A stretch of DNA of 64,000 nucleotides from Acholeplasmatales bacterium (lineage in GTDB: Bacteria; Bacillota_I; Bacilli_A; Acholeplasmatales; Acholeplasmataceae): NCBI GenBank assembly GCA_031284585.1, contig JAITXT010000009.1, positions 1 to 64,000 of the forward strand. Reading direction: 5' to 3'. Shown in pieces: positions 9,001 to 47,490 of this stretch (the stretch's first letter is position 1; every line of letters begins with the position of its first letter). A program made the position numbers and the translations under genes. A model generated the notes under the pieces. That model made no database searches. It saw nothing but the letters and a program-made list of their open reading frames with translations, and had not been told where the DNA came from.

Positions 9001-12000
9001 TGCTGCACTAAGTTCACCAAATACTGTAACGTTATAAAACTTTATTTCACCAGAAAAAGTAGTTTCTATTCTAGAAACACCTCTATCTAAATGAATAACA
9101 TCAACATGATCAGATGAACTTAAAGAATATGCATAATGAGAAAAATATTCAATTGGTGCGGTATGCAAATCTAAATATAATAAATCTTTATAAAAGATAT
9201 TAGAAGGTGCATTGTTATTAATATTTGAATTTATTTCACTAGATTCAAAAGTTGGTGAAGATGGAGGAACATGAGTTTGATGATTTGTAGGATATAAAGT
9301 TTTTTCAAATGTATACCAACCTAAATCTGCTGATAACCAGTAAATATCATCACTAGTTATACCAGGCAATCCAATCGTTTGGATATTATTTTTTAAAAAA
9401 CCAACTCTATCATTTACTCTTTTATCTAAAAGTAAAGTTGAAGCAATATTATTATTAGTTCCATCAACAGGGAATAATATCGCTAAAAAAGTTTGATAAT
9501 TACCAACACTTGAAGCATATTCATAAGTTGTTGTTCCATTTATGATTGCTCCAACAAAGATATAATTTGATATACTACCTGCGGTTGCAGTAACGATAGA
9601 AACTGTAGAATAATAACCACTTCTATAGGTAATAATGCCAGCAATACCTGCTGCACGTTTATTGGTCGCACTAGGAGTTACAACTCCTTTGTTAGCACAA
9701 GCATCGAAAGAAACATAATCTCCGCTTCCTACTATACCACCCGCTATTGTATTTGATACAGTAATAGTTCCATTATTAAAACAATCATAAAACTTTGTGT
9801 ATCTAGCTTGTGAAGAAAAACCAGCAGCATAAGAATTTTGAGAAACGATTGCTCCATTATTTGAAGAAGCAATTATTAATGTAGGATGTTCTGCAGTACC
9901 ATCAGTATTTCCAAATCCGGAAATATTATTTACACCTTCAACATTAATATTTACATTAACATTAATAATTGTAGAAGAAGTTGCTTTTCCAAATAGTCCA
10001 GCCGCATTATCACCACGACCAGGCATTCTTCCGCCTATATTTAAATTTTTAATGGTTGCTGCATTTAGATATCCAAATAATCCAGTTGGAGTATTTCGAT
10101 TCGTATGTATATTAGTAATCGAATAATTATGCCCATCAAAAGTACCACTAAATTTATTACTTTCTGTCTCACCTATAACAATAAAATTATTAGAAGGAAA
10201 TTCACTTTCTAGACTTAAATCAAGAGAGGTTCGTAAATGTACTGTTTTATATTCATAGTTTCTTCCTAAGTTAACACTTATTGCAAATTCATATAAATCA
10301 ACTACATCATTAATTTCCGTAACTTCTGCAGATTTAACAATATCAAACTCTTTTTCATCCTGAGGAACAGTAGGATTAACTTCTCTATTATATGTTCTTA
10401 AAGTCACATGACTTGATTCTGTAAATACCATACGAGAAGGAACTGACATTTCTGTTTCTACACCGTCACCAATTTGATAAGTTAACTTAGCAGTTGAAAA
10501 AGGAACAGAAACACTAATTGAACCAGTAGTTTTAAAATAATATTTTGGACTTGTAACTGCAGGATTAGAAAGTAAAATTGTCGCACTATCAAATGGTTTA
10601 TGTGAGATAGTAAAATCAGTAGATAATGCTGGATTAGCAAATCCTTCTAAATTAAACCAACTATTAAAATATGGAGTAAATTCTACGAATTCAGTTCTAA
10701 GTGCTTCCGCATTTGCGTTTAAAATATTTAAAAAAGCTGGACTTCCAAGATATTCACTATCACTAATACTTACAGCATCTCCAGCTTGAAATCCTACTTC
10801 TTGAGCAACTCTTTTTGTAATAGCCAAATATTGCGTCCATTCTATATTATACAAACTAACAAAAGTTCCCTCGGTTCCATTTGTGACTCCACCCAAATCT
10901 GATTGACCATCAATTTGGCTTTTTGAAATTCCATCTATTTTACCACCTACTACAGTCATACGGTAACAACCTAAAATATATTGTCCAAATCTGTCCCTAT
11001 GTTTAGTCCAGTTAGCAAATGCAGATTTTATACTAGCAGGATTCGTCGACCCAACATATGGATCAATTCTATACTCTCCACCATAATATGTATATACATT
11101 TTCAAGTCTAGAAGCGGCAGAACCATCATTACTAAAATTCATAATTGCAACTATTCCACCAGCTCTTGCTCCTAAACTATTTCCACGAGCTGAAATAATA
11201 GTACCATAGTTTACACAATTTTTTACAACAGCTGTACTATTCGCAACATCACCAATAATACCTCCAGCATGGTTACCCATAGCATCTACAGTACCATAAT
11301 TAACTGAGTTTAGAATAGTAACTTTATATCCATCATAAAGTCCACCTAATATTCCTCCAGCTCTATAAGTATAACCAAAAATATAACCTCTATTAACTGC
11401 CCCGATAATTGTAGTATTATTACCAGTTCCAAGTATTCCACCTTCTAACGTTTGACAATTCCAAAAATCAACGTCGGCCGTTAGATTATATAATAAACTA
11501 TTAAACGCTACTGATACAAATGCAGAATCACCCTGATTATTTTTTGTTAGACCCATCGATAAAGCATATGCCTCGCTTCGATTATAATTAGTTACATCAA
11601 AAAACTTTCCATATTTCGCTTCATTGAAATGATTTTCATAAAGTTTCCCAGAAGCATCTGTCATATCTACAGGAGCACGACCGCCTGATCTTCCGTCAAT
11701 TGTAACTGCTTCTTTTCCATCGATTAATTCATGTTTTCCGATTAAAGTTAAAGAAGAAATTACCGCTCCATCTAAGACACCAAATAAACCTGCTGCGCCT
11801 CCTCCATAAGTTGTTTCTGGTGCCGAATCGGCATTAAGATTTGGCTTGTAACCTCTTCCATAAATACCAGTAATAGTATGACTTAGACCATGAAAGATAC
11901 CGCCAAATTTAGAACCAGCAGTTCCCCTAAAAGAACCAATCTGATCGTAGTTGTAACTTCCTCTGAAACTTCCATAATTTTTTCCTGAAGCACCAAGGCC

Positions 12001-12381: not shown

Positions 12382-12436
12382 AAAATTCCCCTCCAAATGT
12401 TTAAATTTTATATTTATCCAAGTATCTAAATAATTG

Positions 12437-30442: not shown

Positions 30443-31121
30443 AACATTTTATCAAATATATTAATTTTTTTGATTACTATAAATAAAAATAACTAGATCT
30501 CTTTGATTATAGAAGTACTAAATCTATCAATAATAAATGTTATTTAAAGGAGCTTTGAAACATTAATACTTCCAAAAAAGCCAATAAAATTATCTTTTAT
30601 TTTAATAATAAAATTATTTCTATACTACCTGTTAAATAAAAAAAGGATTCATTATAATAAGTAAAGTATAATTTAAAGCTTACAAAGAACAGAAAGTTCT
30701 TAAAAAATTAATCCTAAAATTTTGAATTCAATTAGTGAACATACATATATTTTAAAGAACTAATTTATATGAAAATAGTTTCATATAATAAGTGATCTAC
30801 TTTAAAAACCATAATAAAATCCAAGTACAAAGCAAAAAAGAAAGTTAAAAAAATATAGATTTCTCTTTATTATAATAAGCCTTATTTAATTAAACAATCC
30901 GCATTCTAACGCGATAATTCGGTCATTATTTATTTTTTTCTTACATATTTTTAAATATAAAACTCTGAAATATCTTATTATTAGTTATTTTTAACCAGAA
31001 CCTCCTAATAATTTTATATATTTTGTATTATGTCGATGGTTTAACTTTTTTTTAGATAAAAAGTCAAAAAGAGCATCAACAGGCGATCAGCCTAAAAAAT
31101 TCATTAATAAAATTGAAGGAT
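30443..31121. other. Gene-poor stretch with one perfect inverted repeat
   Basis: No coding frame of convincing composition was found on either strand. A perfect hairpin TATATGAAA-ATAG-TTTCATATA lies at 30766-30787, with no T tract after it. A short fragment near 30680 reads AYKEQKVLKKLILKF and may be gene debris. Confidence 0.45.
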
Positions 31122-34100
31122 TTAAAAAATTGTGTCTAGTTCAAATTTGCTAATTTCAATAAGCCCATTATTTATTAAATATTTCTGCAACTCATAATTA
31201 ATTGAAGATTCAGATGAATACATCAAAAAATTAAAATCTTCTTTCCCAGCCGCATATAGAAGATTAGCATATAGTGATGAAGTAGAAGTAGTAATAGAAC
31301 TTAAGTCCTCTAATGATATATTAAACCTTTTTAAATCACTACCTAGTTGAGTATCATTTATTTCTATTACTGAATAATTTTTACCACCTCCATAAAAAAC
31401 TATTCCTCCGTGAGTAATGAATGTTTTCTGCACATTGTCGTAAATAAGAATTTTCTCAAATTCACTCAATTTTATTTTGATACTCTCAGATGACATCTGA
31501 TATCTAATTTCATCTTCTCTAAACATATAAATATCTAACAACAATTGCTTAATATCAAATTTAAAATATTCAAATATTTTAGGATCAGTAACTCCAGGGA
31601 AAATCTCTATTAAAGTTCTAGAATCAATAAGTTCAATTGGTTTGAAATCATAAAATTTATTAGACCCATTAAAAGTAAGAAGTGCAGCATAAGAAGTACC
31701 TGCGATGTTATTCCAAGGAAGCATTTCCATTTCATAGATATTTTGGATTCTATGACCATCAAGAAATGGACCGCTAAATTTAGATTCAACTCCTATACAA
31801 AATAATCCACTACTCATAAAAACATTGTCTGTGAATATTACTTTAGTTTTCATATATTTATCAACAAAATAATCATCTCGAAGATTTTGAACATTGAAGG
31901 GTTGATTATTATTTAAATAGGGCATACTATTTTCATCTAGTAAATAAGGAGATGCCTCTATAAATTTATTGTCTAAACTTGAATCTTTATCCACTTCTCC
32001 TATTTTATAAGCATTAGCACCAACCTTAACTATAAACTCTCTTGAATTACTCAAAACATTCGAAATAAGATTTACTTCAATCATAGAGTCTAAATCACTA
32101 TTTGTATGAAAAGATTCAGTATAGTAGTGTTCTCTTTCCTCACCAAATATTCGTAATACTGTTCTTCCAAAGCCTACTCGAGAATTAACTAAATATACTT
32201 TATCCTCCATTATTGAAAGAGTTGTTCCCACATAGTTAAGTTCGTTAATATCAAAAGTTGGGAGAGAATTCTTTTCTATGTCATACGAATACAATTCTAA
32301 GTTATCTAGTATTACTCCTTCAGTTCTAACTAAAAAAGACATATTATCTTCAGCTTTTACAGCAACCAATGAACCTAAAGCAACCATATCAAGAGGACCT
32401 TTAAATAAACTATTCTGCACATTTAATCTATTTAATAAATAAGATATGAAATGAGTATTTATCTTCTTCCCATTTCCAAAGACATCATTTTTAAATTCAA
32501 CTAAATAATGTAGAATAGCTTCCCTGGAAGTGTTTTTATAAAATGTTTGATCCGCAGTTTCGGTAATTATATTATTTTTATAACTATCACGAAGTTTAGA
32601 AGCATTATCATTCGTGATACTATATTTAATCAAAGATTCTTCATTGTAATCAAAATAACTTTCACCTAAGTAGATATTTTCCTGAATCACTAATTTTTCA
32701 CCTAAATTACTAGCCTTTAATAAATCTTTTTCACTATATACATTTATTCCATCAACTAATCTAATCTTAAAAGATGCACTTATAGGATTTCCAAGTAAAA
32801 TTGAATCTTTATCATAAGCCTTTACTTCAAGAAGACCTGTTCCATTTACTTTTAAATAAATATTATTTCCTGATTCTCTAATCTCTCCAATCCCAGTATC
32901 ACTAACTGAAAAAGTAATTTTATCAAAATCAACCAAATAATTATTATTATAAAGACTCCCGTCAAGATAATAATATACTTCACATTTTAAACCATCAACA
33001 TATCTATATTTCGCAAAAGCCATTAAAGATTCAATTCCTAACGAAAATGAATTTTCAATAAATAGTAAATTTGGATACGGATTAAGGACTGTTATTTCAA
33101 ATTGAAGTACACCAAGTTCTTCTAGTTCAGAAAAAGAATTAAAAGAGTAAATGTAGGCATAAGCAATAAAGGTTCCTTCTCTTATAAACATATATTTATT
33201 ACTTCCTACTTCTAGTGTATATAGTGAAGGAAAATCAAATATATAAATTAAATCAAGTAATAGAGACTCACTATGACTCTCTAAAGTATATAGATATGCA
33301 TTTTTAGATAAAGAGACAATCATCTCGCCTTTAATATATAAATCTAAACTATCAAAAGTCTTATAACTTATATTAATGCTAGAAAACAAGATATCTTCAT
33401 CTAACAAAGAATTATTTAATCTAAACATAATTGTAAAATTATCATTAATATTATCTTTTAGGATCACTATTAAGTCAAAATAAATTCTTCTCTTACCAGA
33501 TTCGAGAAGAGATAAAGATAAAATATTTATTAAATATGATTCTACCCAAACATTATCTTTCATGATAATAGGTTCATTTAAATCAAGATTAATACTCTCA
33601 TCCACAAATCCAGTTAACTTAAAATCTTTTTTACCCATTAGTAAAGGAACTTGAATATTTTCTAGACCTTCTAGTACAATACCAGATAAACTTTGATTTC
33701 CATGTATAGTAAGGCTAAATTCCTTTTTAATGGTCTTAATCCCATTTAAAAGTGTAATCTTGACTTCTACCACCCCGTTAGATAAAGCTCTTGATTTCCC
33801 GCTATTTTCATCTACTTTTAAAATATTTTGATTAGAAGATTCAAAAAGAAAATTTCCTCTAGTATTAGTAGGCGTAGTATTAACTTTAATAAAAAATACA
33901 TCTCCCATCTTAAGATTTGAGAATTTTAATTCTTGATCATTTAAATCAAATAAATTTATTGAATCAATTTGAAGAGGGAACGAAGAAAAGACTTCCACTA
34001 ATACTCTTTCTTTAAAAGATTGAACTGAAACCTCTATATATATTACTCCAGGAGAAATTGGTGTTAATTTATAAACTCTTTTTGTATCACTACTTGACTT

Positions 34101-34418
34101 TAATTCTTCTATTTTAATTACATTAGTAGAATCACTCATATCTAATTCATTATAGTTATGAAAGGAAAAGCTTGGGTTAATGTTTTCTTTTTTAACAGAT
34201 GTAGGAGCAACTTCTAACTCTAAAAAAATATCTTTCTGAAAGAGATCTCCCAAATCAAAAGAATGCATTTTTTTGTAATTATTAGAATCTTTAATATCTA
34301 ATTTTATGGAAGAAATAGGTGTATCAATTATGATACCTGCAATATTAGATACTGAAGTAATAGTAAACAAAAAAATAAGTGGTAAAGACAAAATCAAAAT
34401 TAATAATTTTTTCTTCAT
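31122..34418 (-). CDS. Large exported Ig-like (Big_2) protein, last gene of the surface operon
   Basis: The 1098-residue protein begins with a signal peptide (MKKKLLILILSLPLIFLF, cleavage after about residue 26) but has no lipobox. Near residues 150-235 a Big_2-type Ig-like domain is visible: SINLFDLNDQELKFSNL, SSNQNILKVDENSGKSRALS, GVVEVKI. The rest is beta-rich, with a central region (about 570-900) resembling beta-helix ladder sequence and no enzyme motif. No C-terminal membrane helix is evident. It overlaps the ABC-2 permease gene upstream by 4 bp, so it is translated with the exporter. A secreted or surface partner of the giant lipoprotein is the best inference. Confidence 0.82.
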   Translation of the reverse strand: MKKKLLILILSLPLIFLFTITSVSNIAGIIIDTPISSIKLDIKDSNNYKKMHSFDLGDLFQKDIFLELEVAPTSVKKENINPSFSFHNYNELDMSDSTNVIKIEELKSSSDTKRVYKLTPISPGVIYIEVSVQSFKERVLVEVFSSFPLQIDSINLFDLNDQELKFSNLKMGDVFFIKVNTTPTNTRGNFLFESSNQNILKVDENSGKSRALSNGVVEVKITLLNGIKTIKKEFSLTIHGNQSLSGIVLEGLENIQVPLLMGKKDFKLTGFVDESINLDLNEPIIMKDNVWVESYLINILSLSLLESGKRRIYFDLIVILKDNINDNFTIMFRLNNSLLDEDILFSSINISYKTFDSLDLYIKGEMIVSLSKNAYLYTLESHSESLLLDLIYIFDFPSLYTLEVGSNKYMFIREGTFIAYAYIYSFNSFSELEELGVLQFEITVLNPYPNLLFIENSFSLGIESLMAFAKYRYVDGLKCEVYYYLDGSLYNNNYLVDFDKITFSVSDTGIGEIRESGNNIYLKVNGTGLLEVKAYDKDSILLGNPISASFKIRLVDGINVYSEKDLLKASNLGEKLVIQENIYLGESYFDYNEESLIKYSITNDNASKLRDSYKNNIITETADQTFYKNTSREAILHYLVEFKNDVFGNGKKINTHFISYLLNRLNVQNSLFKGPLDMVALGSLVAVKAEDNMSFLVRTEGVILDNLELYSYDIEKNSLPTFDINELNYVGTTLSIMEDKVYLVNSRVGFGRTVLRIFGEEREHYYTESFHTNSDLDSMIEVNLISNVLSNSREFIVKVGANAYKIGEVDKDSSLDNKFIEASPYLLDENSMPYLNNNQPFNVQNLRDDYFVDKYMKTKVIFTDNVFMSSGLFCIGVESKFSGPFLDGHRIQNIYEMEMLPWNNIAGTSYAALLTFNGSNKFYDFKPIELIDSRTLIEIFPGVTDPKIFEYFKFDIKQLLLDIYMFREDEIRYQMSSESIKIKLSEFEKILIYDNVQKTFITHGGIVFYGGGKNYSVIEINDTQLGSDLKRFNISLEDLSSITTSTSSLYANLLYAAGKEDFNFLMYSSESSINYELQKYLINNGLIEISKFELDTIF

Positions 34419-36070
34419 AAATAAACCTCCATTACGTTTTTTTCTAAATTCTTTCTAATGATAAAAAAACTAACTATAGAAAGAGTTAAAGTCACTAAAA
34501 TGAGAACAATATGTGGCAAAATTAAAGCAATTACTTCTCCAAAGAAATAAATACCCAAAACTTTTAAAAACACTAATAGAATTCCTAAAATAATCGAGAT
34601 AAGAAGAGACATGAAAATAATAAAAGAAATATTGTTATTAGATTCACTAATTTCAAAATAATTGTTCTTACTAATAAGCGGTCTCATTAAATCTAGTTTA
34701 GTTGATAATAGAATTTGAGCAATTGAAAAAAGAATTGACCCAATAAATATAATTAAAGATTCAAAAAAAGAGATCCCAATAAAGAAATAGACTATTGATG
34801 TAATAAAAAGACTAACAAGAGAAATAATTGATGAAAATATAACCTTTGAGTAAATAAGATCAGTAAATTTAATAGGCATGGCTTTAAGTTCTAAAAACAT
34901 AAGTGAATCCCGTGAGACGTTTGTCGCAGAAAAAGTATTCGTCAAGCTTGAAAATAAAATGCTTGAAAATACAGCAATTTCAAATTTAAGATCTAGAGAT
35001 ATTATTTTGATCACTATTTGAGAAGAAATAGTAACCATCGTGTAACAAATAAGAGGTACTATTAATCCAATCACAAAATATTGGAATGAATAATTAGTAC
35101 TTCTGTAAACATTAATAAATTCCTTTTTTAGAAGGGTATGATATGTGTTTTTTTCTTTATATTCTTTTCTATTTTTTTTACTAAAATTAACTACTTTATC
35201 TTGATATATTTTCTTAAAAATTAAATTTAAAATAAAAAGGGATAAAAAAATTAAGAGAATGATATTAAGAAAAATAATTAAAAAATTTAAAAAAATATTG
35301 ATAGAAAAAATAATTAAAGACATATCCTTAAAGAGAAAAATGATATCAATAAATCTTCTAATTTTATTAACAAGTTCTAAATCAAAAAAGAAAATAAAAT
35401 CTCCACTTGTAAGGTATATTCCTACAAGATCAAGAATCTTTGAATATAAAAAGAAAAAAATACCAACTATAATTGTCAAAATTATTAATCTAAATAAATG
35501 ATAATTAGCTAGTTTTCTCCTAATATAACTATAAATTAAAGATACTATTATACCAGTAAGTAATGAAAATGTAGAAACTATAAATATCATCAAAACTAAA
35601 AGCAAAAAAAAGAGAAATGGGTTAACTAAGCCATTTATTAATGTATATATAATTAAGCCTTGAGGAATAATTAAGAGAAAAGTCATAAATAATATTTGTA
35701 AAAAAATGAAAAATAATTTGCTAATAAAAAAAGTTTTTAAATTTATTGGTAGAGGAATCATTACCAAGAAATCAGTACTATTTACTATTTTTTTAAAAAT
35801 CATTTCCATAGTCTGAAATGCTTCTAAGATATAAACTAAAAAGAAAATAATAGAAAGTAGTTCAATAGCCCTATCAATAAATTCATGTCCTAAATAGGAG
35901 ACTTTTATATATTCATTGATAAACTGAAAACTACCAAAAAGAAAAAATGAAAAGAGAAAAAAACTTAAAAATAAAGTAATGCTACTTCCTAATAGATCTT
36001 TCTTTTTATCTTTCCGACTAAAATTAAATCTTATTTCAAATTTCAAAAAATAAATAAATGCTCTCATCAA
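34415..36070 (-). CDS. ABC-2 type membrane permease
   Basis: The 551-residue protein has about twelve hydrophobic helices in two sets (residues about 25-270 and 310-545), with a charged loop near 285-310 (KKNRKEYKEKNTYHTLLKKEF). This fits the two-bundle ABC-2 exporter permeases. The next gene upstream encodes an ABC ATPase and overlaps it by 4 bp. Together they would form an exporter or a mechanotransmission-type ABC complex. Substrate is unknown; the operon partners are surface lipoproteins. Confidence 0.85.
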   Translation of the reverse strand: MMRAFIYFLKFEIRFNFSRKDKKKDLLGSSITLFLSFFLFSFFLFGSFQFINEYIKVSYLGHEFIDRAIELLSIIFFLVYILEAFQTMEMIFKKIVNSTDFLVMIPLPINLKTFFISKLFFIFLQILFMTFLLIIPQGLIIYTLINGLVNPFLFFLLLVLMIFIVSTFSLLTGIIVSLIYSYIRRKLANYHLFRLIILTIIVGIFFFLYSKILDLVGIYLTSGDFIFFFDLELVNKIRRFIDIIFLFKDMSLIIFSINIFLNFLIIFLNIILLIFLSLFILNLIFKKIYQDKVVNFSKKNRKEYKEKNTYHTLLKKEFINVYRSTNYSFQYFVIGLIVPLICYTMVTISSQIVIKIISLDLKFEIAVFSSILFSSLTNTFSATNVSRDSLMFLELKAMPIKFTDLIYSKVIFSSIISLVSLFITSIVYFFIGISFFESLIIFIGSILFSIAQILLSTKLDLMRPLISKNNYFEISESNNNISFIIFMSLLISIILGILLVFLKVLGIYFFGEVIALILPHIVLILVTLTLSIVSFFIIRKNLEKNVMEVYL

Positions 36071-36783
36071 ATATCTCTTTTTCCACGGTTAAAAAATAAA
36101 TCAATTTCACTAAATTTATCAGTACCTATTACTTCTTTAACTATAGATCCATTTTCAATTAAAATTACTCGATCGCAAATTTTAGAGACCATTTCAAGAT
36201 TATGACTAGAGAAGAGAATAGAATTTCCTTCGTTTTTATAATTCATAATAAATGTGATTAATTTTTGAAAGATTTCAGGATCTAATCCATTAGTAGGTTC
36301 ATCTAAAATCCAAAATTTAGGCTTATGAATAAGGGATGCCATTATTGATATTTTTTGTTTCATCCCATGTGAATAAAATAAGATTGGTGATTCTAAACTA
36401 GATCCTAGATTAAATATATTTTCAAGCTTTTCAAATTCGTTTAAAAAATCATTTTTAGAAACCTTAAAAATATTTGCAATAAATTTTAAATATTCATAAC
36501 CAGTCATTTTCTCAAAAGTAAGATGATTGTCAGAAACATATCCTATCTCTTTCTTAAACATAATAGGATTATCTAATAAATCAATATCATCTAATAGAAT
36601 TCTACCACTATCAAAATTAAGGATACCTACTATTGATTTAATAATAGTGCTCTTTCCCGCACCATTATGACCGAGTAATCCAACTATTTCTTTCTCGTGA
36701 ACAGAAAAACTTATATTATCTACGACATATGGTCCATCTTTAGTATATTTCTTCTTATATTTATCGATAATTAATTTACACAT
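36067..36783 (-). CDS. ABC transporter ATPase (CcmA/drug-exporter type)
   Basis: The 238-residue ATPase has Walker A GHNGAGKST, Q-loop GYVSDNHLTFE, signature FYSHGMKQK, Walker B WILDEPTNGLDP and H-loop LFSSHNLE, as in ABC-2 systems. The Q-loop carries Asp (VSDNH) where Gln or Glu is usual. It overlaps the permease gene by 4 bp (ATGA) and follows the small lipoprotein gene by 2 bp. It energises the 551-residue permease. Confidence 0.93.
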   Translation of the reverse strand: MCKLIIDKYKKKYTKDGPYVVDNISFSVHEKEIVGLLGHNGAGKSTIIKSIVGILNFDSGRILLDDIDLLDNPIMFKKEIGYVSDNHLTFEKMTGYEYLKFIANIFKVSKNDFLNEFEKLENIFNLGSSLESPILFYSHGMKQKISIMASLIHKPKFWILDEPTNGLDPEIFQKLITFIMNYKNEGNSILFSSHNLEMVSKICDRVILIENGSIVKEVIGTDKFSEIDLFFNRGKRDI

Positions 36784-36785
36784 TT

Positions 36786-37349
36786 TTAATCCTTTTTATG
36801 CTGTATATAAATATCTATTTTCCCAAGAAGCCCATTTAAAGTTAAAAACTCAATGGTTCCTGAAGAAAAAGTATTTCTATCAATCAAAAAATAAACAATA
36901 AAATCACTTCCTTTTAATTGATTATTAAAAACCTTACCCGTTTTATCATCTTTAAGATGCCCTCTTAGTTCTACTACGCTATCTTTACTTATTAAATATT
37001 CTGTAAAACTATCTTTTTCAAAATCAAGAGAAAGAATGTAAGACGAACAATCTAATAGGTTATATTCATTTTCCTCTACACTATATTTAGTCATACTTGG
37101 AATTTCATTTAAAGTCTTCCTAGATTCTTCTATTTTAAAATAGTTATCATTTTGAGTAGTTATTTTATAGGAAACTGAAGATACTAGGCCTCCATCATCA
37201 AAAAAAGCATAATTAATCTCATAAGTATAGAAAAATATATCACTTGAGAATGTTTCAAGAAAGATTCCAAAATTAGATTTACAACCAATTAAAAACAAAG
37301 AAACAAGAGGAATTATTACTGTAATTAATATATTTTTAAGCTTTTTCAT
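36786..37349 (-). CDS. Small lipoprotein of the surface operon
   Basis: The 187-residue protein has a signal peptide and lipobox (LIGC, Cys23) and a beta-rich mature part of about 165 residues with no recognised family (SVSYKITTQNDNYFKIEES, GTIEFLTLNGLLGKIDIYI). Its layout recalls outer-face lipoproteins of about 180 residues that bind or shield a membrane complex. It lies 9 bp after the giant lipoprotein gene and 2 bp before the ABC ATPase, so it is part of the same operon. Function unknown. Confidence 0.75.
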   Translation of the reverse strand: MKKLKNILITVIIPLVSLFLIGCKSNFGIFLETFSSDIFFYTYEINYAFFDDGGLVSSVSYKITTQNDNYFKIEESRKTLNEIPSMTKYSVEENEYNLLDCSSYILSLDFEKDSFTEYLISKDSVVELRGHLKDDKTGKVFNNQLKGSDFIVYFLIDRNTFSSGTIEFLTLNGLLGKIDIYIQHKKD

Positions 37350-37358
37350 AATGACTCC

Positions 37359-40300
37359 CTAAATAATAATGAAAATTTTTTTAATAAATATTTTCACAAA
37401 TAATGAAAATAAAAACATCAATTCAATCGAAACTTTTGAAATACCTATTAGAGAACTAACGTATCCTAATGATTCACTTATAACACTTTCAACATAAGCA
37501 TTATAATTCAAAACAATAATATCAAGTTTATCAAGATATTCTACTAATTTTTCACTTCTTAATAAATCACTAGTACCATACAAAATTCTATATATTTCAT
37601 TGATTTTGGAAAAAGATTCACTATTAATACTTGAATAATTAATAAATAAATCTATATCAGAATAAAAAGTATCATAATCAAGAGTTTTAATAAATATTAC
37701 TTTATCACTTGAAGGAAGATAATTAGCGGTTTCTTTATAACGAATATAAACAGGATAACTAGTTCCATTTACCAAACCGCCTAACTTCCTATTCTCACTA
37801 TATTCTGTAGTACTTTCTAACCTAAATTCATAAATATCATTTAAATCAACTGAAAATTCATGATAATCGACTAGAAAACTAGAAAGACCAACATTAATAG
37901 GTTTTTTATTTTCTCCTTTTAAAACTTCAAAATTAAACGTAAATTCTCCGCAACCATTCAGATCATCCACAATTATTTTAATCGTATATATACCTGCATT
38001 AAGTATTATTTCTTTTTCAAGATAATAAGAGAAACTTAGACCACTTGCAAAATATATCTCAAAATTATTAAAGGGTAATCCATTATAATAAGTAGTTTGA
38101 TTAATAATTTCTATTTGATTACTAACATCTAGTTTCTCAACCATACACTCAAATACTCTTTCTAAAACTTTAGAACCACTATTATCTACTAAATGATATT
38201 TTAGATAATTGTCATTATCAATTGATACTTTTACAAGATAATTGCCTGCATCTCTAATAAAATCTACACTTTTGCTATCTTTAAATACTAAAATACTAAA
38301 AATACCTTGGATATCACTATCATAAGTAAAAATTAAATCTTTAATAGTTCCGTCATATCTAAAATTAGTCTCTTCCAAACCAACTAAAATTCTTTTAGAT
38401 GTAAAAGTATATGACCCATAATTAATTTCTTCTACATAATCAATCTCATAATTTGAATTAGAAAATAAACTAAAAAAATCTATCACAATTTTAGAAGGAA
38501 GATATGATGTTTCATTTACAATTAACTTTAAATCTAAACAATAACTATCTGGAATATTATTCGTGATATCAATATCATCTCTATTAACTAATCTATATGT
38601 TAGTACGTCTAATTCATCCCATTCTGATATCTTATCATCAATTATTACTTTAATATAATAAGGTATCACATTGATAGATAAAGTTTCATTCGTAAGATTA
38701 TAAAAGTAATTATTAGAATTAATTCCTAAAATTGAAATTATATATTGACCAACATTTAAAATATTAAGATTTGAGAATAAAACTTCTATTTTATCTTCAC
38801 CTACTAATCCTGAAATATTATAATTAAATTCATACAACGAACCCGAATAAGTGATATCAATATTTGAATCCATGAAATTAATCATAATTTCTTTTTTATT
38901 AATTACAAGAACTCCATTAACAAAAGATACTAGATAATTTGGATTATAATAACTCGCCATGATTTCATAAACTCCTGCATTTTTTGGAGAAGAAGGAGTA
39001 TAAAGATTAATATTTAACTCATCTCCTTCTAAAATTCCATCCGTTTGAAAAGAATTATTATTTAGAAGTGGTACTTCTCCTGAATAAGTAAATGTTTGTT
39101 TGTTCAAATTGATAGTAATTTGTTTTGGTTTAATTACATATGTTCCAAAAATAATATCTTTTATATAGTAATTAGCTGAACTGTTTAAAGTACCTTTAAT
39201 AATATAAGATCCAATATCATTTCCTTCTTCTCTATAAGTCGAAAAATCAAGTATGTCGGAAGAAATAATATTTAAAACATTATATGAAAAACTAGTTTGA
39301 ATAGTTCCATAAATAACTTCATAACTTTCTATTTGAATAGTAACTTCCCTTTTTTCAATAACAAAGCTTGAAAATATTTCCAATTGTAGATAATTTGTTC
39401 CGCTAACTATGGCTTTAACTTCACATATTCCAGCATATATTGGACTACCAGACAAAACATAATAGGAAACATTTAATTCGTCATTATATAGAGAAATTAT
39501 TGTATTAACTCCAATTGAATGAACTTTTTTATCATATACAAATACTTTATTTTGTTCTAAGTAAACATTAGTTATTTCGCTTTTATATATTATATAATTA
39601 AAAGTTGATTCTCCAACATATAAGTAATTATTCAAACTTGTCCCGCCCATTCCTAAAACTTTAAGAAGATAATTAGAAGCATTAATATTCGTCTCATTTT
39701 CAAGATGTAAATAGAGATCATCACCTTCAATTAGACCAATTAGTTCATAAGATATCTTCTTTTCTTCTTTATTATAAATCATGTTTTCTGGTATTATAAA
39801 TCTAGCCATTATATTTCTTTTAGAGATTGTTAAAGTCATTTCCCTAAATTCATTAATTAATAATATATTAAGACTATCATATAAAAAATTCACGGATACG
39901 TAATAAATACCTGCATCAACATAACTATTTATGCATGAGTAACTAACTTGAATGTAATTGGGAACATCCCCTTCTAAGGAGACACTTTTTGGTGTTCCAT
40001 CATAAGTAAATACTTTACTAGAAAAAGTAAATATACTTGTATCGAATACAAATTTTTCGATAATAATTTCTTTTGAAAATTCACTATATTTTAGGAAACC
40101 ATCACTTGAAACACTTACTTTAAATCGGTACAATCCCGTGTCACTAACCTTAGTTAAAGTGATACTATCTTCATTTGAAATTAGTTCATTGTTAAAATAA
40201 ATGAAATACTCGACTGGTAACAAGTGATTACTAGACAAATTAATTGTCAAAGTATCAAAATAAGTAATATTAGTAATTAGTTCTATTCCGTCATTAATTA

Positions 40301-43300
40301 TTAAATCAGGAATAATTAAATCATATTTACCATAGATACTTAAATCAAAAGATGGAGTGAAAAGAGAATCTATTTTTTCATCAAAATTATTAAAATATCC
40401 CACAAAATCAAAACCTATTTTAGGGTTATGTATATTCAAATCTACTAATTCTTCATATTTATAAGATGTTTCTTTGAAAAATAAATTATCTAAGTAATAA
40501 GTAACTTTATAAGTATTTCTAATGTAATAAACTTTTAAACTCATATTATCTGAATTTAATAAAATAGAAGTAACATTGTTAACATTAGTATCATCATAAG
40601 TAAAACCATCAAATTCTCTAACTGTCTTAGTAGTAATAATACTATTTTCCTCCGCTAATAAATGAGTTGTGCTACATAATTCATATGAATTATCATTAAG
40701 AGCTTCTAAATAATAATTTATTTGATAATTTAAATAAAATATTTCAGTAAAGATAACTTCAATATTAATATCACTTTCAACTTGATAATTAATAAGTGAA
40801 TCAAAATACTCATTATTAAAAATTATATTACCTAACTTAAATCCCTCAAATGGATTAATTTCTATGCTTAAATAATCGAAATGGTTAATTGTGCCTGTTG
40901 AAAAAATATCTCCATTGATTCTAATTAAAACATCACCTAGCATCTCACTATATGTTAGTTTTATCTCGTAATTTTTAATTTCCCATTTCGCATAAACTTC
41001 TAAATTTACGTAATAATTTATAGTCGAAAGAATCTCTTTACTAAAACTTTCATCAAGAAACCAGCCAATAAAATTATAACCAAGTTTTTCGGGAGTAAAA
41101 AACATATATTCATTCAAAACATTATAAGTATTTAGTCCAAATCCTGACCCGTCATCTAAATGATAAATAATATTATAATCAATCACAGAATAGATAGCAT
41201 AAACATAAATATCACTTTTAATATCAAATATTTCATAAGTATCAAACACTGCACTATAACCCACTCTTGCAAGAGGTTCTATATTTAAGACAAAACTACT
41301 TGCATATAAGACATCAAAACTTATTGAACCAGAATCATCTATTACATAGACTTTAAGCTGAATTAAATTAACTATAAGATCGTTTTTATATAAGATATTG
41401 TAATTAGTTTTATCATTTGGAATAAACATAATTGAGATAATATTTTCTCCAATTTCAAAATTTAATTCATCAATAAATTTAAAAACTCCATAATTATTAA
41501 TTTCATTCCAATTCTGATTAATCGATTCTCCTACATAATAATATATACTTGTAGGCCAAGTAATATTAAGATTTGCTTTATCTATTAAAAGATGGGTTTC
41601 TATATCATCTAATAGATAATTACAAGATATAAATTTGGCTTTAATATCATAAATACCAGAATTAATAAATGAAATAGTCCTAAATACATTAGAAGGAGTT
41701 TCATAAGTTTTTCCTCCATCATAACTGAAAGCTACTAAAATAGAATTATCTAATAAGATATCTTGATTATAGATTGATAAACTATGAGGTAGACCGTCAT
41801 ATACAAGATATTCCTCTCCTTCAAATCTAGCATCAATGTTTGCCTTATTGATATCAAGTTCATATTCATTATTTATTAAATAGTAATTATTTGTGCTAAC
41901 AATTAAATTACTTTCAATATAATAAACTCCAGCATCTTTTAAATTATTAGCACCAGTTACATATAACTTAATATCATTTCCAAAAAGTATTATTTTTGCT
42001 TCTAGTTCATGAATTACATCTTTATGATATTCAATTTCTAAATAATTATTATTAGAATAAGGATTTTTGTCAATACTCCAAAGTACTTCCACAAAAATTG
42101 GTTTAATAATAAGATAAGTTTCTAAGATTAAAATTGTATTATCATCATCTAACCTATAATTTGAAGTATTATTTAATTCATAAAAAACTTTAATATTATA
42201 ATTACAAACATCAATACTACCTAATTCCCCGGAGGAAGCTAAAATATTATTAATAGTTGAATATTTATAAGTAAAATATGAAGGTAAATTAATAAGATTG
42301 ATCTCATGATAATTATTATCATATGATACTTCTACTGGCATTATATTATAACTATCATCATAGATAACTTTTTTATTAATTATAATTTCAAAAAATAATT
42401 CAATTTCAAAAATATTATCTGAACCAATACTAAAATAATTATCAAAGTAGTATATAGTTAGGATAACTCTATAATATCCACTGCTACTAACATCTACAAA
42501 AGACATAGAAGAAAGAGTATTCCCTAAAATAGGTTCATAAGTATTCATATTTTTCTTGTACCAAAAATAGTTTATAGAATATATATTATTATAAGAAAGA
42601 AAATCATTTCGATTAGAAAGTTCTATATTATCTCTCACATAAATACTAGCCAATTTTTCATCAAAAGTCTTTTCTAAAACTCCTTCTTCAAATAGATAAT
42701 CACTACTTTCTAGATGAACATCAATATCTTTAAAGATAAATTTTGCATACAAATTAATATCTCCAAATGTTCCCTTGCTTAAAAACTCTATACTTTCAAA
42801 AAAGAAAGGATCAGTATACCAACCCAAAAAGAGAAAACCTTTTTTATCTAAAAATTGATATAAATAGAAAGAATCACTACTCACTTGATAGATAGTTGGA
42901 AATAAACTGCTCCCCGCCCAAAAATAACTTAGGTAATCGTCAAAGAAGTGATAAGTAATAGTATAATCAACTGTTAAAGTTTCAATGAAATAATAAGTAA
43001 TATCTACATCCTCAGGAAGATATAAATATTTAGATATACTTTCAATCACACCAGTTGAATCAACTTCTTCCCCAGAAAATGAATTAATTCTAAATGTTGA
43101 TTTATACCCATTCATAGGAAAAATAGCTAATCTAAACAATTCTTTATTATCAAAAGTAGTTCCATCCATTTCATAAGTTTCTCTTGAAATACCTTCTAAA
43201 TTAGCATTAGGTCCAATTATTACTTTACCTCCACTAATAAATCCATAGATTGCTCCCCCAAATGTTCCATTAATAGTGAGAGTTCCTCCTAAAAATATTT

Positions 43301-46300
43301 TTGCGACCCCGCGATCTATGGGATATTTATAGGTGCCAATATTCTCATTTATATAAGAAAGAGAAATAAGAGTTCCTGTTTCATTAATAATTAGTTCCGC
43401 GTCCTCATAAATATAGAGTTTCGCTCCAGGTAATAATTTTAAACCATGATTAATCTTATATACTCCACTATGAAGATTAATAACCATATCTCCATCAATA
43501 GGGTATAAGTAATTTTTAGTTGAAGCACTAAAACCACTAATTACTAAATCTCCACCAATCTCTTCCGCTCCTCCATAAATATCAATTATTGAAGAAACAA
43601 TCAAAAAAGACATATTTCCATAAGCAGGAATAGATCCTCTTTTAGTTTCTTTTGAAATTACAGCATAACCATTATTTTCCTCATCTAATTTAAATAAACC
43701 TTTTACTTCATCAAACTGGGAAAAACGTGTTCGGCTATAAATTCCACCAGCAAAAGCTTTTACTATTCCGTAATAATTGGCTTTTGCTTCTACTTTTATA
43801 CATGTAAGAATTCCAATCATTGAGTATTCAAGATAGGGAAATACTCCTAAAAAGAATACTTTGGATGCAAGAGTACCTCCTCTCCAATTAACCATAATGA
43901 AAGTTTCTCCTAAACTTGAAAGAGCTTTTGCGGTTACTAGACCAGTATTTAGATTTCCTTTCTCAATAAGCCCAAAAACCTCTAATACTCCGCCTTCTAA
44001 GATAACTATCTCTCCATCTAAAATTACTCTTGAATATGGACCTGAAATATCTTGCGGAGCATTTGTAGTTGCACGTCTTCCTGTAACTCCATTTATATAC
44101 ATAGTTCCGTAAATATTAAGTTTATATCCATTTGGAATTGTTAGAGTTAAATATAGGAGAGGAATATCTAAAATAGCTTCTGAATCTTTATTAAATCCAT
44201 TTCTTAAAATTCCTGTTTTATCATTTTTATCATAAGGTATGAGAAAAGTTCTACCACTTGGTAATACTAAATCTGAATCTAGAGTGTAATTATTAATTAA
44301 AATAATTGTGTCTCCTTCATTAGATGAATTAAAAGCATCATCTAAAGTAAGAAAACTATTTAGTCTTATGATAGCAACACTATCCCAACTTCCAGTAACT
44401 ACTTCGATAGTCACATCTCTTGTAAGAGTAAATGACATTTCCTCCCCTAAATATTCTAAATATATACTTTCTCCAATCAAACGAAATCCTAAAATAATGT
44501 ATCCTTCTTTAGGGGTTGCTGCTACATGGATGAAGGAACCTCCGAAATACATATTACCTGGAATTATCATATTTGAGCCATTAACGACAGATAAATCATA
44601 GTAATTAGAACTATTATCAAAATATACATATGACTCACTAGTAAGTATAGAAAACCCTGCAAAATAAATAGCATTCAGATTATAATTTTCATTACTATTT
44701 GAACTACCTAATCTTAAGTACCCTATGTAAAAATCATAATAACCCATGTCTAGTTGGATAACAATATCTTTCCAATTTTGATCTCCTTTCAATTCGCTAA
44801 AATGAATTTTATTCGGTTCTGGAAATAAAGCATTAGTATAAATTATTTTATCAAAAAATAAATTTGAAGTTGGATAACTAGGAATTGAACTAGTAGATAA
44901 ATCTGGTAACTCAGATCCTATATAAAGAGTTCCTCTACTCACATGAGTTGATATTTTAAAGGAAAATGTAAAAAAAGCTGAACTTTCAAGGATTTCTATT
45001 GATACATGAATTCCTTGAAAATCTCTACTATCTTGATGGTTTTCAAATCCTCCACTTTTATATACTGTCATCCCAGAATAACTAACATCTTTTACAAAGG
45101 GATTTATTTGATCATTTACTACATTTATCAAACTAGTACTTTCTTCTAATACTAAACCATCTAAAGATACATCATAAAAAATAGTAATGCTATGATAACT
45201 ACTATAATGATTATCTTGATAAGATAAAAAATAGAATATTTCTCCTTTAGAAATAATAATAGGGATAGCATCACTAGTAGGTATTCCATCATAAATGATA
45301 ACTAGATTATTATTTGAATCATATTTATATATTTTTATATTAGCATTAGTATAAGAATCTCCTAGATATATTCCTAATAAGGTTACTGAAGAAGAAACTG
45401 TTATTTCACTTATTGAATTTAACTCGGTTATTTCACCGTCTGCATAAAGCGCTATTGTTGGTAAAAATGATCTAGGATAAACAAAAAAGGTAATATCAAT
45501 ATCGGAGTAGACATTAGTAATTGAAAACTCAAAGGTATCTGGAGTTTTATTTGCTAAAGGATTATTTATATCTCCTTCCATAATAATATTCTTGATATTA
45601 TCATATACTAGGCATACTGCTAGTTCACTTTGATTATTCATATTAAAATCAATAGTAAATGTGACGCTATCATTCATAGTGGCACTTTGAGCACTACTAG
45701 TTAAACTAACTAAACCACCATAGGTATCATTTAAATTAGAGAGAACACTAAACTCTCTTTTTTCTCTAAATCTTAAATTAGATAAATAAATTGCATCATC
45801 ATATATTGTAAAAGAAGTACTAGAATGATAAGTTTTATACGATATCCTAAAGTGATAACTTCCACTATGCTCTAAAAATATTTTAAACTCACTCCAAGGA
45901 ATATTGGAGTTATCAATATTTTCTGTGTTATAAATTATTTCCTCATTTAAAAAAATCACCATATAACAATATGCATTAGAACTACTATTATCATTCTTAA
46001 CTCCACTTACTTTATAGTTAAAAGAAAAAAGTCCTGGTTTCTCTATCTCTAAAAAAATATTTAAGTTTGATTCATTTGTACCTCTTACCAAATCTTCCAT
46101 TTTATTTGTGGAACTATAAATTGCTTTACTAGGATCAAGAATACCATCAAGGCTTACGTTATCATTAATTACAAATGGATAATCTAGGGAATTAATAACG
46201 TGAATTACATCTAGTGAATCACTGTTAACTAGTAAATCAAGAGATAAGTAATTATAAAAGATAAATTCTACACTTTCATAAAATAAATCATTTTCTTCCA

Positions 46301-47390
46301 TGTTTGAAAAAGAAGTTATTAAAACTGAATGTGCGCCATAGGTAAGAGACAAAGAAAACTCATCCAAAGAAATATCATTTAATAAAATACCATCAAGATA
46401 AATAAGAATAGAATAATTGTTAGAGAAATTTAAAGTATCAATATTAAAATTAAATGTAATTAAATCATCTACTTGATTTAGATAATTAGTAAATTGAAAG
46501 AAAGATAACAAATTATAATTTTCATCAAATACTTTTATTTCTGGTAATTTAATTTTCAATTTAAAAATAGCTATAAATTGATACTCAATTGAACTAATGC
46601 TTATTTCTGGCACTTCAAGACTCAATTCCTTTGTTCCATCACCATAAAACCAAGAATCTACATTTTTAATCCCAACAAATGCATATTCTTCTAGATTATT
46701 ATTAATAACATTAAAAAATACTTTTGAATCAATTATTTCTCCCGTTAAACTTCCCATTAAGATATTATTACTACTATATGTTGCATTAATTGATCCAAAA
46801 AAGAAATCAAAGACATGAAATTCTGAATAAGAAATAATACTAGCTCCTTTAAAAGAAGCAGAAAGACTAATGCTATGAGTAAAATCTCCTGTAACTAGAA
46901 AACTAATATTTTCAAAATGAGGAGTATTATTACCAACAGGCAGAAAATTAAACCCATAATCTGAACTTGAAATATCATTTTCAAATGAAGAATAATTTAA
47001 ATCAATAGGTTCTCCATCAAGAACTACTTTAATTTTACCAAATAGCGATGTATTTGTACTAGCAAATTTATACCTAAATCTAAAAGTAATATTTCCGCTA
47101 CCATTAAAATGTCCTTCTCCAAAAGTTAAAATTGAAGGATTATTATTAAATCTTTTTCCAAGTGAATAAGAATCATTTACATTTATGGAATTATCAGTCC
47201 ATGTAATGTTGCTAACTTTATCAAAGTTATTAGTGGCTCCAGTCCAATCAATTGTCTCGTTCTCATCTATATAACTAAAACTATTAGAAGTATCAATTGC
47301 TAAATTTGCTAAATTGTTTGAACAACTTTCTAAAAATATTACTAGAAATATTATTAAAAATAATATTATTTTTCCTCTTTTTTCTATCAT
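37359..47390 (-). CDS. Giant 3343-residue surface lipoprotein with C-terminal membrane helix
   Basis: The ATG follows AAAGAGGGATT. The N-terminus is a lipoprotein signal with a lipobox (FLESC, Cys23). Residues about 30-1000 are beta-sandwich-like repeats. Residues about 1010-1450 look like a right-handed beta-helix (GGVLEVFG, INGTFGGAIYG, GGKVIIG). Listeria-Bacteroides (InlB-type) repeats follow: GFLFLGWYTD (about 1523), GYNFIGWFLD (about 2110), GFDFVGYFN (about 2332). MBG-like modules fill about 2470-3030 (FTYDGTPKSVSLEG, DAGIYYVSV). A helical segment ends in a hydrophobic C-terminal helix (IELMFLFSLFVKIFIKKIFIII). With lipid at one end and a helix at the other, both ends may be held in the membrane. 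It heads the five-gene operon. Confidence 0.9.
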   Translation of the reverse strand: MIEKRGKIILFLIIFLVIFLESCSNNLANLAIDTSNSFSYIDENETIDWTGATNNFDKVSNITWTDNSINVNDSYSLGKRFNNNPSILTFGEGHFNGSGNITFRFRYKFASTNTSLFGKIKVVLDGEPIDLNYSSFENDISSSDYGFNFLPVGNNTPHFENISFLVTGDFTHSISLSASFKGASIISYSEFHVFDFFFGSINATYSSNNILMGSLTGEIIDSKVFFNVINNNLEEYAFVGIKNVDSWFYGDGTKELSLEVPEISISSIEYQFIAIFKLKIKLPEIKVFDENYNLLSFFQFTNYLNQVDDLITFNFNIDTLNFSNNYSILIYLDGILLNDISLDEFSLSLTYGAHSVLITSFSNMEENDLFYESVEFIFYNYLSLDLLVNSDSLDVIHVINSLDYPFVINDNVSLDGILDPSKAIYSSTNKMEDLVRGTNESNLNIFLEIEKPGLFSFNYKVSGVKNDNSSSNAYCYMVIFLNEEIIYNTENIDNSNIPWSEFKIFLEHSGSYHFRISYKTYHSSTSFTIYDDAIYLSNLRFREKREFSVLSNLNDTYGGLVSLTSSAQSATMNDSVTFTIDFNMNNQSELAVCLVYDNIKNIIMEGDINNPLANKTPDTFEFSITNVYSDIDITFFVYPRSFLPTIALYADGEITELNSISEITVSSSVTLLGIYLGDSYTNANIKIYKYDSNNNLVIIYDGIPTSDAIPIIISKGEIFYFLSYQDNHYSSYHSITIFYDVSLDGLVLEESTSLINVVNDQINPFVKDVSYSGMTVYKSGGFENHQDSRDFQGIHVSIEILESSAFFTFSFKISTHVSRGTLYIGSELPDLSTSSIPSYPTSNLFFDKIIYTNALFPEPNKIHFSELKGDQNWKDIVIQLDMGYYDFYIGYLRLGSSNSNENYNLNAIYFAGFSILTSESYVYFDNSSNYYDLSVVNGSNMIIPGNMYFGGSFIHVAATPKEGYIILGFRLIGESIYLEYLGEEMSFTLTRDVTIEVVTGSWDSVAIIRLNSFLTLDDAFNSSNEGDTIILINNYTLDSDLVLPSGRTFLIPYDKNDKTGILRNGFNKDSEAILDIPLLYLTLTIPNGYKLNIYGTMYINGVTGRRATTNAPQDISGPYSRVILDGEIVILEGGVLEVFGLIEKGNLNTGLVTAKALSSLGETFIMVNWRGGTLASKVFFLGVFPYLEYSMIGILTCIKVEAKANYYGIVKAFAGGIYSRTRFSQFDEVKGLFKLDEENNGYAVISKETKRGSIPAYGNMSFLIVSSIIDIYGGAEEIGGDLVISGFSASTKNYLYPIDGDMVINLHSGVYKINHGLKLLPGAKLYIYEDAELIINETGTLISLSYINENIGTYKYPIDRGVAKIFLGGTLTINGTFGGAIYGFISGGKVIIGPNANLEGISRETYEMDGTTFDNKELFRLAIFPMNGYKSTFRINSFSGEEVDSTGVIESISKYLYLPEDVDITYYFIETLTVDYTITYHFFDDYLSYFWAGSSLFPTIYQVSSDSFYLYQFLDKKGFLFLGWYTDPFFFESIEFLSKGTFGDINLYAKFIFKDIDVHLESSDYLFEEGVLEKTFDEKLASIYVRDNIELSNRNDFLSYNNIYSINYFWYKKNMNTYEPILGNTLSSMSFVDVSSSGYYRVILTIYYFDNYFSIGSDNIFEIELFFEIIINKKVIYDDSYNIMPVEVSYDNNYHEINLINLPSYFTYKYSTINNILASSGELGSIDVCNYNIKVFYELNNTSNYRLDDDNTILILETYLIIKPIFVEVLWSIDKNPYSNNNYLEIEYHKDVIHELEAKIILFGNDIKLYVTGANNLKDAGVYYIESNLIVSTNNYYLINNEYELDINKANIDARFEGEEYLVYDGLPHSLSIYNQDILLDNSILVAFSYDGGKTYETPSNVFRTISFINSGIYDIKAKFISCNYLLDDIETHLLIDKANLNITWPTSIYYYVGESINQNWNEINNYGVFKFIDELNFEIGENIISIMFIPNDKTNYNILYKNDLIVNLIQLKVYVIDDSGSISFDVLYASSFVLNIEPLARVGYSAVFDTYEIFDIKSDIYVYAIYSVIDYNIIYHLDDGSGFGLNTYNVLNEYMFFTPEKLGYNFIGWFLDESFSKEILSTINYYVNLEVYAKWEIKNYEIKLTYSEMLGDVLIRINGDIFSTGTINHFDYLSIEINPFEGFKLGNIIFNNEYFDSLINYQVESDINIEVIFTEIFYLNYQINYYLEALNDNSYELCSTTHLLAEENSIITTKTVREFDGFTYDDTNVNNVTSILLNSDNMSLKVYYIRNTYKVTYYLDNLFFKETSYKYEELVDLNIHNPKIGFDFVGYFNNFDEKIDSLFTPSFDLSIYGKYDLIIPDLIINDGIELITNITYFDTLTINLSSNHLLPVEYFIYFNNELISNEDSITLTKVSDTGLYRFKVSVSSDGFLKYSEFSKEIIIEKFVFDTSIFTFSSKVFTYDGTPKSVSLEGDVPNYIQVSYSCINSYVDAGIYYVSVNFLYDSLNILLINEFREMTLTISKRNIMARFIIPENMIYNKEEKKISYELIGLIEGDDLYLHLENETNINASNYLLKVLGMGGTSLNNYLYVGESTFNYIIYKSEITNVYLEQNKVFVYDKKVHSIGVNTIISLYNDELNVSYYVLSGSPIYAGICEVKAIVSGTNYLQLEIFSSFVIEKREVTIQIESYEVIYGTIQTSFSYNVLNIISSDILDFSTYREEGNDIGSYIIKGTLNSSANYYIKDIIFGTYVIKPKQITINLNKQTFTYSGEVPLLNNNSFQTDGILEGDELNINLYTPSSPKNAGVYEIMASYYNPNYLVSFVNGVLVINKKEIMINFMDSNIDITYSGSLYEFNYNISGLVGEDKIEVLFSNLNILNVGQYIISILGINSNNYFYNLTNETLSINVIPYYIKVIIDDKISEWDELDVLTYRLVNRDDIDITNNIPDSYCLDLKLIVNETSYLPSKIVIDFFSLFSNSNYEIDYVEEINYGSYTFTSKRILVGLEETNFRYDGTIKDLIFTYDSDIQGIFSILVFKDSKSVDFIRDAGNYLVKVSIDNDNYLKYHLVDNSGSKVLERVFECMVEKLDVSNQIEIINQTTYYNGLPFNNFEIYFASGLSFSYYLEKEIILNAGIYTIKIIVDDLNGCGEFTFNFEVLKGENKKPINVGLSSFLVDYHEFSVDLNDIYEFRLESTTEYSENRKLGGLVNGTSYPVYIRYKETANYLPSSDKVIFIKTLDYDTFYSDIDLFINYSSINSESFSKINEIYRILYGTSDLLRSEKLVEYLDKLDIIVLNYNAYVESVISESLGYVSSLIGISKVSIELMFLFSLFVKIFIKKIFIII

Positions 47391-47460: not shown

Positions 47461-47490
47461 ATTATACTAAAAAGATTTTTTATTTATAAA
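47461..47490 (-). promoter_or_regulatory. Probable promoter of the surface operon
   Basis: On the minus strand TATAAT (47461-47466) lies 18 bp downstream of TTTATA (47485-47490), 71 bp before the giant lipoprotein start. The -10 box is perfect and the -35 weak. No terminator was seen after the upstream dus gene, so read-through is also possible. Confidence 0.45.

Follow-up and report, generated by a model that had tools for sequence, protein, structure and literature searches.

Conserved ABC-2 transporter cassettes with a membrane-anchored Ig-like partner, usually beside large surface proteins, in Acholeplasma-like bacteria

Related systems

ABC-2 exporters usually carry lipids, polysaccharides, drugs or peptides. 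In the NosDFY(L) system, which serves the assembly of nitrous oxide reductase, an ABC-2 pair acts together with a lipoprotein and with an extracytoplasmic protein that is dedicated to it. The cassette described here also has an ABC-2 pair with an extracytoplasmic partner, and NosY is a weak fold match to its permease; nevertheless, this partner, which we call TM-Ig (a single-pass protein that combines a membrane helix at its N-terminus with an Ig-like domain and is encoded directly 3' of the permease), has no match to NosD, denitrification genes are absent from the context, and the proposed clients are giant proteins. The GldA-GldF-GldG system of gliding Bacteroidota is likewise an ABC-2 system linked to surface machinery, but the ATPase studied here reaches 156 of the 402.6 bits that the GldA cut-off requires, and this label was rejected. 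The PF16949 permeases of Bacillota share the fused two-half architecture and match part of our permease branch, whereas the cassette permeases form a branch of their own, in which TM-Ig is an obligate neighbour. The MBG, Flg_new and Big repeats of Gram-positive giant adhesins also occur in the cassette giants, but the cassette clade lacks sortase, would rely on a lipid or membrane anchor and co-encodes an ABC-2 pair.

LhaT (YpjA) of Bacillus subtilis is a lipoprotein N-acetyltransferase which belongs to the ATGY superfamily together with TMEM164; it acts at the outer face and takes the acetyl group from a lipid-borne donor, whose flippase is not known in Bacillus (PMC12345273). One of the two cassette types, type A, resembles it in having a membrane acyltransferase domain of the TMEM164 superfamily (PF14808) beside lipoproteins, its proposed clients. 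Nevertheless, LhaT stands alone as a six-helix protein (DUF1405) with no dedicated ABC pair, and the cassette that we started from has no such domain. We found no description of the cassette in the open-access literature on YwaF, ATGY, NosDFY, PF16949 and the giant surface proteins of wall-less bacteria, and its novelty is provisional because this literature and the family libraries are what was covered.

The five-gene block

The window, that is, the whole stretch of 64,000 nucleotides analysed here, is part of contig C29 of an Acholeplasmatales genome (1.23 Mb, 77% complete). Five genes follow one another on its minus strand, encoding a giant surface protein of 3343 aa (37359..47390), a small lipoprotein of 187 aa (36786..37349), an ABC ATPase of 238 aa (36067..36783), an ABC-2 permease of 550-551 aa (34415..36070) and a long form of TM-Ig of 1098 aa (31122..34418), with intergenic distances in this order of +9, +2, -4 and -4 bp. 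All of these open reading frames, as well as their common direction and spacing, agree with a sequence-only reading of the window, which had proposed an ABC exporter locked in one transcript with giant surface proteins. The permease may start at TTG 36070 or at ATG 36067, the latter choice giving a 1-bp overlap with the ATPase stop (TGATG). The two 4-bp overlaps, between ATPase and permease and between permease and TM-Ig, are compatible with translational coupling. A scan of the minus strand found no terminator-like site between the five genes; its three sites, compared to 3.4 in shuffled sequences, comprise two within the giant open reading frame and a hairpin at 30899..30914, about 200 bp past the last gene. 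A promoter-like site at 47461..47490 on the same strand, 71 bp 5' of the giant's start, is also at chance level. Because both scans remain at chance level, we consider a single transcript likely and no firmer than that.

The sequence-only reading took both surface proteins as lipoproteins, which holds for the 187-aa protein, with its canonical lipobox (IGC), but is uncertain for the giant, whose atypical lipobox (L-E-S-C, Cys 23, with Glu at -2) fails the strict motif, unlike those of the large lipoproteins of most relatives. The giant, the proposed client of this locus, has a signal peptide, three MBG_2 domains (at about 2680-3000), two Flg_new domains and a hydrophobic C-terminal stretch at about 3313-3343. 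Pectate_lyase_5 matches only 4 of 13 large surface proteins. The small lipoprotein is an orphan, with no convincing relative among 160 genomes of the order, and falls outside the conserved core. Family profile searches assigned no significant named domain to it, to the permease or to the 1098-aa protein. The latter had been called Big_2-type; Pfam shows no Big_2 in it and matches Ig weakly, at an E of 1e-3 that falls short of the cut-off, and 9 of its 22 aligned relatives match Big_2. Its AlphaFold model, built from two sequences, reached a pLDDT of 28 and was set aside.

The same genome encodes further giants. An open reading frame of 6610 aa, Flg_new-rich and larger than that of the window, occurs on another contig (C7:86635-91542), and an exported protein with Flg_new repeats, at least 4132 aa long, occupies positions 1-12396 of the window on the minus strand, where it runs off the window start with no cassette ABC pair adjoining.

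The ATPase matches PF00005 (ABC_tran) above cut-off (E 1.5e-28, 100 bits). It is similar to drrA and to the ATPases of lantibiotic and PSM exporters, as would be expected if the pair were a peptide exporter or a self-protection pump of the lantibiotic, PSM or drug type. We regard this as very improbable, given scores far below the curated cut-offs for drrA (167 versus 312) and PmtC (121 versus 375), neither of which was retained as a label; moreover, a precursor-peptide gene was not noticed, and such a pump would explain neither an Ig-like subunit nor the TMEM164 fusions of related cassettes. The labels PmtA and LptB were also dropped on curated cut-offs.

The permease had been read as a 12-helix ABC-2 protein, and its AlphaFold model (mean pLDDT 83) indeed has twelve long helices, arranged as two fused six-helix halves. 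PF16949 (ABC_tran_2) is matched by 7 of the 16 branch permeases (best E 3.4e-10); the window permease, although of this branch, has no Pfam match. Its best PDB match, over the full length, is a mycobacterial efflux pump (probability 0.99, but a weak E of 0.054), and NosY and Wzm are among the other weak fold matches, so that the model weakly resembles ABC-2 exporters.

The conserved core and its two types

Relatives were found with the permease as query and their neighbourhoods inspected, and a profile search of contigs used the ATPase alignment. The block is real and unusual, but what relatives conserve is not the same set as the five listed genes, and it extends past this genome. This conserved set consists of an ATPase gene, or a larger gene with the ATPase at its end, followed by a PF16949-type 12-helix permease and by TM-Ig. 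Because the 187-aa lipoprotein is an orphan, the order of all five genes, whose conservation had been suggested as a check, is specific to this genome, and relatives keep the three-gene core instead. Across 52 loci, the gap between permease and TM-Ig is -8 to +36 bp, bar one mis-called start, and TM-Ig is 133-2093 aa long. As a rule, the cassette also includes large lipoproteins or other surface proteins, encoded before the ATPase in the window and in genomes G016 and G034 and after TM-Ig elsewhere, with a constant order of permease and TM-Ig. This fixed place of TM-Ig, while that of the giant varies, suggests that TM-Ig is a subunit and the giant a client.

These two genes of the core are also inherited together. 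In a tree of 62 permeases, a single branch (93/64; 94% of bootstraps) separates the 35 with a TM-Ig neighbour from the others. Its support is good, not decisive; shuffled labels require 18.9 changes on average. The window permease clusters with five relatives at 100/100. Related ABC pairs without surface-protein partners, which would speak against the proposed association, were seen only outside this branch, where 24 PF16949-type pairs have none. The association with exported surface proteins thus stands across many genera and families, but its lipoprotein part is not universal, since a strict lipobox protein is found at 41 of the 52 loci and is lacking at 11. The invariant partner of the ABC pair is the Ig-like membrane-anchored protein.

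These observations bear on an alternative explanation, in which the pair would be an ordinary ABC-2 exporter of a lipid, a glycan or another small product, co-regulated with adhesins, and the giant a neighbour rather than a client. Such cargo is typical of ABC-2 exporters, and the related PF16949 pairs without surface partners would fit well, as would the giants without cassettes in the same genome. Indeed, only two cassette permeases were found in this genome, and its Flg_new giants outside any cassette in view include proteins of 6610, 4302 and about 4140 aa, which also counts against the client relation. We nevertheless find this explanation rather unlikely, as the coupling to TM-Ig is invariant, large surface proteins recur across families, and biosynthesis genes do not recur among the cassettes inspected.

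A profile of the TM-Ig N-terminus, built from 35 training loci including the window, was applied to held-out permease loci of further families within the class, where it matched the gene immediately 3' of 17 out of 18 permeases, the 18th being N-masked there; this count excludes one locus already in the training set, and one fetched region gave no permease open reading frame. Short and long TM-Ig N-termini align in hhalign with an E of 1.5e-8, which weakens to 2e-4 (probability 44%) without the membrane helix, indicating that much of the signal lies in this helix. The two forms thus appear to be related, a homology resting partly on the membrane helix. The long forms, that of the window included, share a conserved C-terminal domain (E 3e-53 between two subgroups).

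Two other arrangements were observed. The closest permease relatives of the window have a divergent pair beside the cassette, consisting of a large membrane protein with multiple helices (743-959 aa) and of an ABC ATPase (L029:14476-17932, L030:12246-15691, L031:11156-14700, L131:1861-5449 and L132:2779-5716). A further, lower-scoring cassette form occurs at loci L133, L136, L138, L139, L140, L165, L166 and L172, and also at L069. At L133, the ABC pair lies beside a SipW-like signal peptidase (identified by eye), TasA-like signal peptides, an AAA_5 protein and a DUF2357 protein, and several other loci of this form have upstream genes of similar sizes.

The 52 loci separate into two types. Type A (27 loci) has a TMEM164-family (PF14808) domain fused to the ATPase or encoded beside the ABC genes, and a short TM-Ig of 133-336 aa, with one exception of 1644 aa. 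A strict lipoprotein is present in the operon at 25 of these 27 loci, the remaining two being a contig end and the 1644-aa exception. Type B (25 loci) has no linked TMEM164 and a long TM-Ig of 576-2093 aa, with a strict lipoprotein at 16 loci; the difference between the types (p 0.017) overstates the independent evidence, because the linked loci mostly belong to one clade and the association of lipoproteins with TMEM164 reflects few independent events. The window cassette lacks the PF14808 domain and is of type B. The second cassette of the same genome (contig C21, L044:4370-18039) is of type A and encodes a 722-aa TMEM164-ATPase fusion, a 541-aa permease, a 155-aa TM-Ig and a 3088-aa lipoprotein with 14 Flg_new domains. 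A transfer of the long TM-Ig domain to the lipoprotein was considered and dropped, since hhalign gave no link between the C-terminal domain of the window TM-Ig and the C-termini of type A lipoproteins.

One Cys and one His are invariant in all 15 linked TMEM164 domains compared. The fractions of Lys and Arg in the loops (0.29, 0.31 and 0.22 on one side, 0.03-0.07 on the other) give a clear topology, which predicts both residues at the outer face, where they may be catalytic. In this 1.2 Mb genome, seven TMEM164-family domains were counted (contigs C7, C9, C11, C17, C21 and C29), and up to ten in a relative, which is a striking expansion of the family. Some are unlinked and nothing connects them to the window cassette; in relatives of the window type, the surroundings of unlinked TMEM164 genes contain no cassette genes.

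The recurrent TMEM164 domain points to lipid chemistry rather than force transmission. The sequence-only reading had raised force transmission, of which a NosDFY-type mechanical machine would be a concrete version: nothing would be exported, and ATP hydrolysis would move TM-Ig, which would fold, load or release the giant. An extracellular partner fixed next to the permease, large extracellular regions that are Ig-like or beta-rich, and the weak fold matches of the permease to NosY and Wzm would all be in line with such a machine. We judge it distinctly unlikely, because the best permease fold match has an E no better than 0.05, no NosD or beta-helix Pfam family is matched in 22 TM-Ig proteins, and the TMEM164 fusions are left unexplained.

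Anchoring of giant proteins without a wall

Of the 41 genomes searched, 37 lack MraY (PF00953), among them 27 of the 30 good ones, and sortase was found in none. The window genome has two copies of Lgt. Genome G012, from the same family, contains a contig stretch that is identical at every base to one listed by NCBI under Acholeplasma sp. AS08sgBPME_359. The simplest reading of these gene contents is that the clade mostly lacks a peptidoglycan wall, in which case lipid or membrane helices would have to hold its surface proteins. To our knowledge, wall-less bacteria cannot use sortase, which raises the question of how they anchor and mature surface proteins of thousands of residues.

The explanation that we tentatively prefer, at somewhat less than even confidence, is that the window block represents one version of a conserved machine which matures or anchors surface proteins through ABC-2 lipid handling. 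The analysis establishes gene content, gene order, co-inheritance and motifs; beyond these, we infer that a full transporter is assembled from the fused permease and the ATPase, probably two copies of the latter, with TM-Ig anchored beside the permease as its extracellular subunit. The large protein of the same operon would be the client, crossing by Sec and being lipidated by Lgt where a lipobox is present, and the transporter would spend ATP to supply or move a lipid for the client's anchor, leading to display on the wall-less cell. In type A, the outward-facing TMEM164-family acyltransferase domain would acylate the client lipoprotein with the lipid supplied by the permease. In type B, as in the window, TMEM164 is absent and the long TM-Ig would bring its own conserved extracellular domain. 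The absence of TMEM164 from the window cassette, the atypical lipobox of its giant and the 11 loci without a strict lipoprotein count against this lipid-based machine.

A more specific version, which we hold to be possible yet doubtful, is that the lipid supplied by an ABC-2 transporter is passed to an acyltransferase domain and an Ig-like subunit of the same transporter, which would acylate and erect a dedicated giant lipoprotein. This would represent an undescribed class of envelope machines in wall-less Acholeplasma-like bacteria and related gut Bacillota, achieving adhesin anchoring without sortase or wall.

We place the cassette among ABC-2 systems as a variant, and there is a genuine possibility that it is a novel kind of surface-assembly machine. 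A transporter branch always found beside a membrane-anchored Ig-like protein, and in most cases also beside a surface lipoprotein of very large size, is suggestive of a so far undescribed machine for finishing or positioning these giants. The cassette is thus a concrete, conserved candidate for anchoring or maturing giant surface proteins in cells without a wall, and the fusions of TMEM164 to ABC ATPases, if the acylation hypothesis is true, would bring ABC-2 transport and acylation on the outer side of the membrane together in one system.
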